A DNA stretch of 21,787 nucleotides, from positions 1-21,787 of the IMG/VR virus record IMGVR_UViG_3300006737_000263; one strand, written 5' to 3'. Origin of the DNA: a virus. Below, one piece after another: positions 1,864 through 5,717 of this stretch. Both the position numbers and the translations under genes were made by a program. The notes under the pieces are model-generated. The model was given only the letters and a program-made list of their open reading frames with translations, ran no database searches and had not been told where the DNA came from. Each line of letters starts with the position of its first letter. The stretch's first letter is position 1.

Positions 1864-4191
1864 ATGATTGTCGATACCTTCCGACCGGACCCCGAGGGTC
1901 CCGACCACCTGTACCTCAGGTGGCGTGATGCGGAAGGTAACCTCATCGAGCGCACGGTTGACGACTACCGACCCTACTTCTGGGTCTCAGCCGACACCGA
2001 CCCCCGCTACATGAGCAGGGTTCTCGACGATTACTTCGGCTCAAGCGTTGACTGGAACGATACGGCAGTTGGCCTTCGAGACAACGAGCGGCTCGTCAAG
2101 GTCTACGCCTACCGAGAAAGCGACCTGCGCGACATGTCGCGCCGTTTCCGTCAGACTTGGGAGGCCGACATCCCGCTCGCCGACAAGTACCTCATCGACC
2201 ACTACCCACGCATGCCCAAGTGGAAGCCCCGTGTCTGGCACTTCGACTTGGAGTGGGACCCTGAAACGAACGAGACCACCGTCATGGCCGTCGCGGACAA
2301 CTACAACCACCGGCATGTCGCATTCTGCTGGAAAAAAGGCAACCCCACCGGCCTCTACGACATGGACCATCACATCGAGACTCGGCATGTTTCATATGAG
2401 GTGCGCGGTGAACAGGTGGAGTTCACCTACGAACGCCACCTGTACGGCTGTGAATCCGACATGCACCGCGCGTTCCTCGACTACATGGACGAGTGCGACC
2501 CCGATGTGTTCGTGGCGCACGCTCTGATGTGGGCCGACCTTCCGCACCTCACTAAGCGACTCAAACAATTCCGACGACTCAGTCCACTAAAGCGCGTCAT
2601 CGGGACGCGCAAGGGCTACGACTACACCGACCAACCCATCCTCGGTCGGCTGTGCTTCGACACGGCGTCACCCCTGCGCAGCGGTAGCGGCTTCGAGCGC
2701 GTCTGGAAAGACAGTGGCAAGCCCCAACTGAAGAACCTCAAACTGGACACCATCGCGCAGGCCTGCGGCCTCGGCGGCAAGTTCGACATGGACGTGTTCA
2801 CCGGCTGGACCGAGCGGTTCGACGAATACGTCGACTACTGCATGCAGGACACCATTCTCCTCAAGCGCATTGACGAGGACAACCACGTCCTCGACTTCTT
2901 CTTCTCTCTGCAGGAACTCTGCGGCGTGTCGTTCGCTTCCTGCCACAACGTCACCCGTTTCGCCAAAGGTCTGCTCAACCGCAGGACCGAGTGGAAGGCT
3001 CCCAGCCGCTCCACTCAGGAGAAGCAAGACTACGAAGGAGCGTTCATTCCTCCGCCTCGACCGGGTCGCTACGAAGGCGTGGCCTGTGTCGACTACAAGG
3101 GCCTATACCCATCACTCATCCTCAGCCACAACCTTTCGTGGGAAACGCAGGTCCCCAAGGACCAAGCGTGGCGTGACGACGTCCGCCAATTGCCCGACGG
3201 CACCTGTTGGGTACAGGGCGTTGACGCGCTCTTGCCGACCATCGTCACTGAGATGTTCGAGAAGCGCGACGAGTATAAGCGAAAGATGCGCGAAGCCGAC
3301 ACCGAATCTGAGCGAAACGGATGGAACACGCTGCAACTTGCCGTAAAGCGGGTCATGGCGTCGTTTTACGGCATGACTGCCAGCGCTCACTGGGGTTGGG
3401 CGGACTTCGACATCGCCAGCGCCATCACAGCCTGCGGGCGACAGGCTATTCGGTTCCTGATGAGCGAATCAGAGGCGCAGGGCTACGATGCTCTGTACGG
3501 TCACACCGACTCTGCGTTCGTCAAGGTCCCACTCGACGAGGCAGATGCGCTCGCCAAGCACCTGACCGCTGAAGTCCAGCGCCGGTTGGAAGCAAGTCAT
3601 CTCATTGTCGAGTTGGAGGCCTACATGCCCTACTGGATTGTCGGAGGCAAGAACCTCTACTACGGCATCTGCTCTTTCCCGCCCGAAGACGACGGCAAGG
3701 TCAAAAGCGCGCGCTGGGGCAAAATCAGCACGCTCTCTCCCATTTCCAAGGACCTCGAAAACGATGTATTGACCGCCATCTGCAACGGTGCAGATGAGAA
3801 TCAGGTCATCGACATGGTCCGTCCTATCTCGAAGCGCATTCTGCGCGGCGACTTCAATCTCAAGGATGTCGCTTCTACCACCCGCTTGCAGAAGCATCCG
3901 TCCAAGTACGAAAAGGTCGGAGGAGGAATCAAGGCGGCCATCTACTATAACGAGCACGTCAAGAACGCTTACGGCGAAGGCTCCAGCGTTGACTGGGTCT
4001 ACGTCCGCGACAACCGGACGCCGGTCATGGCGTTCGAGGATGAGTCTGATTTGGACGGCTACGAATTGGACGTCGACCTGATGGTGGACAAACTGGTGAA
4101 AGCCAAACTGAAGCCGATTTTCAAGGCCCTTGACTGGGACTTGGATGCAGCAGCGGGCGCCGCCCGTCCCAAGAACTACTTCGAGGTGTGA
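1864..4191 (+). CDS. polB: Family B DNA polymerase with 3'-5' proofreading domain
   Basis: The replicative polymerase, 775 residues, a typical single-chain archaeal/viral length. Exonuclease motifs: Exo I FDLE (D128, E130), Exo II with D225 in ADLP, Exo III YCMQD (Y325, D329). All four metal-binding acids are present, although the Asn of the usual NxxxFD is Ala220. Polymerase motifs: A DYKGLYPS (D410), B KRVMASFYG (K495, Y502, G503) with Ala where Asn is usual, C YGHTDS (D549) with His for the first Asp, and a later KNLYYG (about 596-601). The catalytic Asp pair D410/D549 is intact, so activity is expected despite these changes. The ATG follows a strong ribosome-binding site. It stands between the zinc-ribbon pair and a MazG-like gene (2-nt gaps). 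No intein or frameshift was seen. Confidence 0.96.
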   Translation: MIVDTFRPDPEGPDHLYLRWRDAEGNLIERTVDDYRPYFWVSADTDPRYMSRVLDDYFGSSVDWNDTAVGLRDNERLVKVYAYRESDLRDMSRRFRQTWEADIPLADKYLIDHYPRMPKWKPRVWHFDLEWDPETNETTVMAVADNYNHRHVAFCWKKGNPTGLYDMDHHIETRHVSYEVRGEQVEFTYERHLYGCESDMHRAFLDYMDECDPDVFVAHALMWADLPHLTKRLKQFRRLSPLKRVIGTRKGYDYTDQPILGRLCFDTASPLRSGSGFERVWKDSGKPQLKNLKLDTIAQACGLGGKFDMDVFTGWTERFDEYVDYCMQDTILLKRIDEDNHVLDFFFSLQELCGVSFASCHNVTRFAKGLLNRRTEWKAPSRSTQEKQDYEGAFIPPPRPGRYEGVACVDYKGLYPSLILSHNLSWETQVPKDQAWRDDVRQLPDGTCWVQGVDALLPTIVTEMFEKRDEYKRKMREADTESERNGWNTLQLAVKRVMASFYGMTASAHWGWADFDIASAITACGRQAIRFLMSESEAQGYDALYGHTDSAFVKVPLDEADALAKHLTAEVQRRLEASHLIVELEAYMPYWIVGGKNLYYGICSFPPEDDGKVKSARWGKISTLSPISKDLENDVLTAICNGADENQVIDMVRPISKRILRGDFNLKDVASTTRLQKHPSKYEKVGGGIKAAIYYNEHVKNAYGEGSSVDWVYVRDNRTPVMAFEDESDLDGYELDVDLMVDKLVKAKLKPIFKALDWDLDAAAGAARPKNYFEV

Positions 4192-4193
4192 AC

Positions 4194-4379
4194 ATGAGCA
4201 GAGTTGAGGAAGAAGTCATCGCCAAGATTCGACAGCGCGCAGAGGTTGGCAAGGCCAAGTACGGCGTTACGATGGAGCGCGGTGACCTTGGACTGCTTGA
4301 CTGGCTCCAGCACCTGCAAGAAGAACTCATGGACGCCGCCGTCTATGTGCAGCGGCTGATGGAGGAGGTGGCAGAATGA
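4194..4379 (+). CDS. Small all-helical MazG-like protein (61 aa)
   Basis: A 61-residue, almost entirely helical protein. The stretch KYG at 22-24, a DWLQHL helix at about 36-41 and then EE at 43-44 with D47 (QEELMDAAVYVQ) recall the EExxD helix of all-alpha NTP pyrophosphohydrolases (MazG/dATP-dGTP diphosphohydrolase-like proteins), which are common in phages and cleanse or bias nucleotide pools. It is much shorter than full MazG enzymes and carries only one acidic helix, so it would have to multimerise or may have lost catalysis. ATG 4194 is preferred to GTG 4188, which overlaps the PolB stop. It overlaps the next gene by ATGA. Placement right after the polymerase fits a nucleotide-metabolism role, but this is inference. 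Confidence 0.5.
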   Translation: MSRVEEEVIAKIRQRAEVGKAKYGVTMERGDLGLLDWLQHLQEELMDAAVYVQRLMEEVAE

Positions 4380-4386
4380 GCAAGTG
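4363..4386 (+). repeat. 24-bp direct repeat, copy 1 (gene junction)
   Basis: This 24-bp stretch is identical to 4515-4538, 152 bp downstream. It spans the end of the MazG-like gene (EVAE and stop), a GGAGG ribosome-binding site, the ATGA overlap and the first codons (MSK) of the next gene. Together the two copies bracket the 51-residue gene at 4376-4531. Confidence 0.95.
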
Positions 4387-4531
4387 CACTGCAATCATCA
4401 AGAGCGGCAAGCGCAAAGGCCAAGTCTGCGGGAGGAACGCCATTGCAGGCGTTGGTGTCTGTGGTCCCCATTGGAGGCAGGCTCCGCCCGAATGCCTTCA
4501 CCCATCCGCTCGGAAGGAGGTGGCAGAATGA
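4376..4531 (+). CDS. Tiny Cys/His zinc-binding protein with KGxxCGR motif (51 aa)
   Basis: The 51-residue product has C4, the motif KGQVCGR with C18, and CGPH with C29 and H32. This C...KGxxCG...CxxH layout is a small zinc-binding signature met repeatedly in viral proteins (known for large eukaryotic DNA viruses and some phages, from memory). Function is unknown. It overlaps both neighbours by ATGA and is bracketed by a perfect 24-bp direct repeat, so its last residues (EVAE) repeat the end of the gene before it, and its start repeats the start of the gene after it. This looks like a cassette that can be gained or lost without disturbing the neighbours. Confidence 0.6.
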   Translation: MSKCTAIIKSGKRKGQVCGRNAIAGVGVCGPHWRQAPPECLHPSARKEVAE

Positions 4532-4538
4532 GCAAGTG
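4515..4538 (+). repeat. 24-bp direct repeat, copy 2 (gene junction)
   Basis: Exact second copy of 4363-4386. It holds the end of the 51-residue gene, the ribosome-binding site, the ATGA overlap and the first codons of the gene at 4528. Recombination between copies would delete 152 bp and join the MazG-like gene directly to the 4528 gene with both frames intact. Confidence 0.95.
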
Positions 4539-4719
4539 GATGTTCTGGAAGAAGGTCGTGCAATCGACCCCTCGCGTGAGCACCCGTCCGTTCTGGAAGC
4601 GTGGCAAGCGCTGCCCAACCTGCGGCCACTACGACAAAATACCCACGCGTCAGACGCAACTCGCTGAGTTCTTCGACGCGGGCCAAGGAAAGCAATCAAA
4701 ACTGGAGGAATACGCATGA
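4528..4719 (+). CDS. Small basic protein with a single CxxC knuckle (63 aa)
   Basis: A 63-residue protein with a strongly basic, Trp/Phe-rich N-terminal half (MSKWMFWKK) and one CPTCGH knuckle at about residues 33-38, followed by a polar helix. One CxxC alone supports at most half a zinc site; His38 or dimerisation could complete it. No homology is recognised. It starts in the second 24-bp repeat and overlaps the following Cas4/RecB-like nuclease gene by ATGA, so its translation is probably coupled to the nuclease. Confidence 0.6.
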   Translation: MSKWMFWKKVVQSTPRVSTRPFWKRGKRCPTCGHYDKIPTRQTQLAEFFDAGQGKQSKLEEYA

Positions 4720-5717
4720 GCAAGCGGAACTGGGAAGCGTACAGCAAGTCGACCTACGACTGGAAGCCGGGTCACGAAAAGCGACTCAGACTGACCAAGT
4801 CGAGCCTGACCAGCGACTTCGACTTCTGCCCCAAGCAGTACGAGTACAAGCGCATTCACCGATTGCCTGAGCCCGGCACCGAGGCCATGACGCGCGGGAC
4901 CAATGTCCACGACGCAGTTGAGCACTACTACGACCACGTTGCACCTCATCTGGACGAACTCTACACGCTGATGCAGCGCGGCAAGCGCGATGAGGCGTTG
5001 GCACTGGCGCTTTCCGCTATGCCAGAGGAAGAGTACGAACTTGGGGAGGAGCCCATTATCGAGGTCAGGCTCCGGTGGGACTTGGAGCGATTGCTCTCTG
5101 GAGGCAAGGAGGATTACCTACCCATCATCAACGAGACTGAGATTCACGCCTACAGCGACGAAGAGTTCACACTCAACGACGAGACTGTTACCATTCCCGT
5201 TCACTGGGCAGGCAGCATTGACCGTGGCTTCGCTGAGGCTGACGGCGGCGTCGCCCTCATGGAACTGAAGACCGGTAAGTGGGTACAGACCCGCAGGGAC
5301 GATGACCAACCATGGGAGGACCCGAAGTTCAAGGTGCAGAGCATGCGCACAGAAATGGCCTTCTACAAGCACCTGCTCAAGGTGGCCGACCACCCCCTAC
5401 AGAACGTGACTCACTGGGGATGGGTCTTCCCCGGCGGAGAAGTCGCAGGACTGGACCCACTCAACAAGTACGGTTACGAACAACGCAGCATCAACCGTAT
5501 TTTCTACGAGCCAGTCACCAAGCGCAGGGATTCTGATTACACCAAGCGGAAGATTCGACGCCTCATGGAAGCGCTCTTTACGGCCTACCTGACCGAGCAA
5601 TGGGAGACCAAGCCCAGCCAAAATAAATGCGCTTGGTGCAACTTCAAGTCGATTTGCCCCTCATGGGAGGGTAGCGACAACCCACAAGAATACCGAGACA
5701 ACTACGCGGAGGCCTGA
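4716..5717 (+). CDS. Cas4/RecB-like PD-(D/E)XK nuclease with probable 4Fe-4S cluster
   Basis: A 333-residue nuclease of the Cas4/AddB/RecB superfamily. Visible in order: C38 in DFCPKQY; RGTNVHDAVEHYY (R60-Y71, with the RGTxxH helix and H65); AGSIDRG with D169; MELKTGK with E183 and K185, the catalytic D...ExK set; and a C-terminal cluster CAWCNFKSIC (C305, C308, C314). One early Cys plus three late Cys is the known 4Fe-4S arrangement of Cas4 and AddB. The expected activity is 5'-3' or 3'-5' ssDNA exonuclease or end-processing during replication or recombination. There is no CRISPR array or other cas gene here, so a role in viral DNA metabolism is far likelier than CRISPR adaptation. It is coupled by overlap to the small CxxC gene upstream. 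Confidence 0.88.
   Translation: MSKRNWEAYSKSTYDWKPGHEKRLRLTKSSLTSDFDFCPKQYEYKRIHRLPEPGTEAMTRGTNVHDAVEHYYDHVAPHLDELYTLMQRGKRDEALALALSAMPEEEYELGEEPIIEVRLRWDLERLLSGGKEDYLPIINETEIHAYSDEEFTLNDETVTIPVHWAGSIDRGFAEADGGVALMELKTGKWVQTRRDDDQPWEDPKFKVQSMRTEMAFYKHLLKVADHPLQNVTHWGWVFPGGEVAGLDPLNKYGYEQRSINRIFYEPVTKRRDSDYTKRKIRRLMEALFTAYLTEQWETKPSQNKCAWCNFKSICPSWEGSDNPQEYRDNYAEA

Follow-up and report, generated by a model that had tools for sequence, protein, structure and literature searches.

Small gene cassettes at repeated translation-coupling joints of a viral replication operon and their likely exchange by short-homology recombination

The 51-codon gene at positions 4376–4531 of the window, by which we mean the whole 21,787-nucleotide stretch of DNA analyzed here (IMG/VR record IMGVR_UViG_3300006737_000263, positions 1 to 21,787), appears to be an optional cassette within a replication operon whose genes are tightly coupled. 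Our main reading, to which we assign a probability of about 0.78, is that such cassettes come and go by short-homology recombination at translation-coupling joints, although the recombination step itself is inferred. In this view, the joint, consisting of the end of one ORF, a ribosome-binding (SD) sequence, an overlapping ATGA or GTGA, and the first codons of the next ORF, is alike enough between genes to act as homology, and whole ORFs would be inserted, removed, or exchanged while each neighbor keeps its stop, ribosome-binding site, and start. The cassette would have entered the native joint between its two neighbors, gene 1 and gene 3, on the branch of the window virus, leaving the joint in two copies, and recombination between these would restore an empty site like that seen in the relative L002. 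The same logic in related viruses would yield arrays of up to seven tiny genes with a common linker.

The window is part of a virus contig that encodes a family B DNA polymerase (PolB), a PD-(D/E)XK nuclease, an ERCC4 nuclease, and a thermosome-type chaperonin. By gene content, its virus group is likely magrovirus-like, its members probably being archaeal marine viruses. Magroviruses are head-tailed viruses linked to Marine Group II/Poseidoniales (PMC10160649, PMC5628999), and PolB and an ERCC4 nuclease have been described in the replication module of almost all of them (PMC10160649), a combination shared by the window virus. The thermosome, which the window virus also encodes, has likewise been linked to magroviruses. 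The placement rests on gene content, without comparison to a named magrovirus reference genome or of the major capsid protein. On the plus strand, PolB (1864–4191; PF00136, 1.3e-31) is followed by gene 1 (4194–4379), whose 61-residue product belongs to family F0 and matches PHROG families of unknown function, and which most close relatives retain between their PolB and nuclease genes; by the cassette gene (family F8); by gene 3 (4528–4719), which encodes a 63-residue CxxC protein of family F2; and by the PD-(D/E)XK nuclease, an exonuclease-like protein (4716–5717; PF12705, 7.8e-16; phrog_69 exonuclease, 3.7e-9). Positions 1–759 on the same strand encode the C-terminal portion of a P-loop ATPase that weakly matches Sak4-like ssDNA-annealing proteins; the ATPase is present at full length (2977–4044) in L001, which is the same virus as the window (PolB 100%, overall 99.9%). 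The Sak4-type match (phrog_124) was obtained for 8 of 21 relatives and is weak, with a best value of 5.1e-6.

Several side observations concern this operon. Behind its CxxC pair, gene 3 has two motifs resembling PIP boxes, QTQLAEFF and QSKLEEYA (the PIP-box reading was made by eye), and an ORF of L001 (1733–2980) ends in TSLNQFGGKKE; it is conceivable that small binders of the replication clamp are common in operons of this type. A 20-bp junction repeat, 85% alike between its copies at 1517–1536 and 1848–1867, bounds two small ORFs before PolB, and the ORFs at 1517–1867 could represent a second cassette block. In L030, L032, L116 (G007), and L151 (G010), two ORFs encode PolB, with the break at about residue 433/440.

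The cassette gene is bracketed by two identical copies of the 24-bp direct repeat AGGAGGTGGCAGAATGAGCAAGTG, located at 4363–4386 and 4515–4538 on the plus strand, 152 bp apart from start to start and separated by a unique part of 128 bp (4387–4514, plus strand). Copy 1 holds the last codons of gene 1 (EEVAE-stop), the SD-like GGAGGTGG, the overlapping ATGA at 4376, and the codons for MSK that open the cassette gene, while copy 2 holds the end of the cassette ORF (KEVAE-stop), the same SD, the ATGA overlap at 4528, and the MSK head of gene 3. A preliminary description had claimed two identical 24-bp copies 152 bp apart around a 51-residue gene, each made up of a gene end, a ribosome-binding site, an ATGA overlap, and the next first codons, and both claims held, with exact coordinates. 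It had also claimed that recombination between the copies would remove the gene exactly and leave the neighbors unchanged. This follows directly from the sequence, in which a crossover between the copies would delete exactly 152 bp and leave both neighbors intact; excision itself was never directly observed.

The 24-bp repeat is by far the longest direct repeat in the window. In 100 third-order Markov simulations, the longest repeat averaged 14.25 bp and reached 19 bp at most, and no 24-bp match in register occurs in any of the 13,160 start/stop junction pairs called in related genomes. The latter set lacks the window's own pair, which the automatic caller missed; for the simulation, and for the permutation test of joint likeness given below, the window junctions were set by hand, the caller having missed some starts in this GC-rich stretch. 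Function alone would make about 10 of these 24 positions agree, since they belong to the SD core and the ATGA; it does not account for the likeness of the remaining joint positions.

The site is empty in several relatives; 36 relatives were found through the nuclease, and further loci were centered on PolB. In L002, whose PolB is 99% identical to that of the window over the part present and whose flanks are 97–98% (left) and 90% (right) identical, the 51-codon gene is absent and gene 1 leads directly to gene 3 via a single AGGAGGTGGCAGAGTGAGCAAGTG (L039, 977–1000). The L002 joint is one base off, with GTGA for ATGA, and L002 is therefore not a literal deletion product of the window genome. Ahead of gene 1, L002 has another gene, of 111 codons, whose two ends share only CATGA. 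All other F0–F2 viruses (L041, L044, L063, L068, L069, and L078; six in total) are empty between F0 and F2, and in the PolB tree the empty L041 is the window's sister among the rows included. Because this sister and the other F0–F2 relatives are empty, the shortest history involves a single gain on the window branch, and such a gain is likelier than a loss in L002, the direction of the event being inferred. In the PolB-centered loci, the interval between PolB and the nuclease contains zero to four small genes; the core order in the window clade is PolB–F0–(F2)–nuclease, and the extra genes vary from virus to virus.

Homologs of the 51-residue protein, a putative zinc finger of the form C-x13-C-x10-C-x2-H, were identified in an ORF scan of the fetched relative loci. 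In distant relatives they occupy two further coupled junctions, one between PolB and F0 (L069, 12354–12557) and one upstream of PolB, after a repeated GAGGTGGACGAATGA joint (L094, 1150–1341). The motifs CTAIIKSGKxKGQxC and C-x2-H are common to all; the homologs begin with M(DGF)RCTA or MRCTA and extend further at the C terminus, through a region missing from the window copy. The MSK start and KEVAE end of the window copy instead correspond to the duplicated joint, and since the 24-mer is the native gene 1 tail plus gene 3 head, this suggests that the joint was duplicated as the gene arrived, a step that remains inferred. Mobility is not restricted to this family, as F8, F7, and F4 are all found at different junctions in different viruses. 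A search of viral contigs with the 51-residue query returned the same virus only, phage records gave insignificant matches only, and searches of Pfam and PHROGs assigned no family. Structure prediction reached modest confidence (pLDDT 72.5), with the tail (residues 39–51) predicted to be disordered.

Repeats at coupled junctions accompany small inserts throughout the virus group. All-against-all comparison of related loci gave 202 clustered small-insert events; those inspected typically consist of a single ORF placed at a start/stop junction and flanked by repeats of roughly 0–38 bp, the longest being imperfect, and exact joints of 24, 20, and 16 bp occur among them. For 24 mapped events, including the window pair, the junctions flanking inserts match at 15.0 of 29 positions, compared to 12.3 of 29 for random coupled junctions from the same genome and with the same start codon. 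This value was reached in none of 5000 permutations, and the outcome was unchanged when the EVTA linker described below was left out. Furthermore, both copies fall at start/stop junctions for 50 of the 166 exact repeats of at least 14 bp within 3 kb, where the area covered by such junctions predicts 0.04, and dinucleotide-model sequences of the same size contain only 17 repeats in total. Separately, a variable ORF position without a clear joint repeat lies directly 3′ of the thermosome gene (L032, 14695–15132; also L033, L086, and L088).

A single linker, GTGGAGGTGACGGC(A/G)TGA, accounts for many of the junction repeats; it encodes VEVTA-stop, holds the SD GGAGGTGA, and overlaps the next start. 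At a sister locus, after an anchor gene and upstream of a clamp-loader gene, near-identical copies of this linker join zero to seven tiny genes head to tail, with the order K5-K33-K12-K1-K15-K13 in L102 and K32-K11-K12-K13-K14 in L099, seven cassettes in L073, and four each in L066 and L068. Where there is no cassette, one linker joins the anchor gene and the clamp loader (L026, L034), and where there is one cassette, there are two linkers (L033); in other viruses, further genes also lie between the anchor gene and the clamp loader. The linker-to-linker cassettes include 90 distinct ones in 57 families, several with CxxC pairs; one, encoding a 209-residue C5 cytosine methylase-like protein, is much larger than the others (L159, 993; L200, 2636, reverse strand). 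The spacer CGGC is present in 48 of 60 junctions that have a perfect SD at the linker distance, which indicates that the linker does not merely provide an optimal ribosome-binding site. The 73-kb record of the window's virus lacks the EVTA linker, and the array evidence consequently comes from relatives only. A window-type PolB at 38–75% identity is present in 24 of the 28 linker records, three have weaker matches, and one has none, while a partial scan of cellular genomes gave only single scattered matches. As a further observation, homologs of K24 are found both in a linker array (L057, 1137–1283) and at a different operon junction with a ATGAGCGA joint (L089, 14670–14822).

The exchange of cassettes is lateral, with breakpoints at the linkers. 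The DNA of shared cassettes reaches 99.1% identity in L073 and L116, 96.4% in L033 and L066, and 90.1% in L059 and L115, pairs whose PolB identities are 74%, 69%, and 50%, respectively. In 13 shared cassette pairs, identity is close to 1.0 in the 12-nt linker core and about 0.25–0.3, the level of chance, just outside it on both sides in nearly all cases. The value in the core arises partly from the way the pairs were selected, and K14 is an exception in that the downstream side stays identical, the neighbor being shared. Some cassette homologs outside linkers have a different tail, and the EVTA tail therefore belongs to the joint rather than to the protein family.

These comparisons also bear on the broader suggestion of the preliminary description, namely that small accessory genes are gained and lost in a modular fashion with the coupling junction as the homology. 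The gene is not always kept, since L002 has a single-joint empty site and six more viruses are empty; similar repeats do exist at other junctions; and forms with none, one, and several cassettes are all found, at the sister locus in relatives. The suggestion is thus supported, with two qualifications: at the window locus, parsimony favors a gain in which the recipient joint was apparently duplicated, rather than an excision, and long homology is not always present, as many events share only 4–8 bp (ATGA plus little).

The enzymes responsible, whether viral or host, the short-homology or single-strand-annealing nature of the recombination, the direction of the window event, and any benefit of the cassette are all inferred. 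No tyrosine (PF00589) or serine (PF00239) recombinase was found in 18 records of 73–109 kb; all 14 control genomes yielded PF00589. The folding of five joints was no stronger than that of shuffled sequences, giving no indication of an attC-like foldable site, and no inverted repeat surrounds the window joint. The replication operon does encode the exonuclease-like protein and the P-loop ATPase with its weak Sak4-like match, and, given the absence of a detected recombinase and of folding, short-homology or single-strand annealing is the most economical mechanism. No reads or mixed population showing excision support it, and for the many gain and loss events with only 4–8 bp in common, illegitimate recombination together with selection for coupling would give the same result.

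That alternative, in which insertion occurs anywhere, only coupling-preserving products survive, and the joint plays no part in exchange, is the strongest rival, but we consider it unlikely. It is favored by the many events that share only ATGA or 4–8 bp, and by the fact that all junctions need an SD and a start/stop anyway. Against it stand the exact joints of 24, 20, and 16 bp, the CGGC spacer, which neither the SD nor coding requires, and the excess likeness of insert-flanking joints over other joints. The last two argue against illegitimate recombination as the sole process, although the short-joint events may be its product. A second alternative is dedicated, integron-like site-specific recombination, in which a recombinase recognizes the linker and moves the cassettes. 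The arrays of single-ORF cassettes with a common joint and with contents and orders differing between viruses would fit, but it is very unlikely in view of the negative search for tyrosine and serine recombinases in the 18 records, with positive controls, joints that fold no better than chance, the lack of an inverted repeat at the window joint, and joint sequences that differ between loci; an enzyme supplied by the host, or one of unknown type, could still act at the linker. Tandem duplication and divergence would make the repeat what is left of a duplicated stretch of gene. Such an origin would produce direct repeats lined up with gene ends, but it is all but ruled out by the 51-residue protein being unlike either neighbor (by eye) and having homologs elsewhere in other viruses, and by the 57 families of array cassettes; duplication of the joint itself remains possible, whereas for the gene body the homologs elsewhere count against it. 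A transposon with target-site duplication was rejected, the 128-bp unique part containing one 51-residue ORF and no inverted repeats.

Short-homology recombination at the joints thus remains our preferred reading. The gain and loss of small genes in viruses is a long-standing open question, and here the unit, the joint, and the breakpoints are directly readable. The joint predicts which genes are interchangeable from sequence alone, and the 57 families of cassette proteins with fixed linker bounds offer a searchable handle on the accessory proteins of viruses known only from metagenomes. A bolder reading, towards which the balance tips only slightly, is that the system is a recombinase-free counterpart of the integron, with the joint (stop, SD, and start; ~18–24 bp) serving as both expression signal and universal recombination site. 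If so, any tiny gene carrying the joint could be plugged in or removed as a working coupled unit and traded across distant viruses, possibly via the virus's own annealing protein and exonuclease from the same operon.

Three known systems invite comparison. The PeSL promoter/stem-loop cassettes of T4-type phages (Arbiol et al. 2010; Comeau et al. 2014; cited in PMC4177764, PMC4503421) are reported to be similar in that a repeated short element at gene junctions mediates the shuffling of small accessory genes between related phages. However, PeSLs are intergenic and consist of a promoter and a terminator, whereas the viral joint lies wholly within the stop/SD/start overlap and codes for the last residues of the protein upstream; a PeSL-type promoter and stem-loop terminator are absent from it, the 4-bp overlap leaving no intergenic space and no hairpin being found beyond chance. 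The nearest start-linked repeats are the SAS/ESAS of cluster K mycobacteriophages, a short conserved sequence just upstream of starts with the consensus GGGATAGGAGCCC (PMC3203893), which likewise occurs at genes of different families in one phage group. The joints GGAGGTGGCAGAATGA and GGAGGTGACGGC(A/G)TGA do not meet this consensus, and the relevant passages of PMC3203893 describe neither a tail-coding overlap nor gene exchange at SAS. Integron arrays consist of head-to-tail single-gene cassettes in variable order, with a common joint, that are exchanged between genomes. Single-gene cassette arrays of variable content and order are met in the relatives, but not in the window, and the joint differs from that of integrons in being a translation-coupling overlap, with no integrase found and no folded attC-like site. 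The magrovirus study (PMC10160649) does not mention cassettes, repeats, or recombination, and we found no description of such arrays in the literature searched, a search that left out most subscription papers. The cassette system thus resembles both PeSL shuffling and an integrase-less cassette array, yet meets the membership tests of neither, and the viral joint cassettes are likely a variant, not described in the literature searched, of an already known type of gene shuffling.
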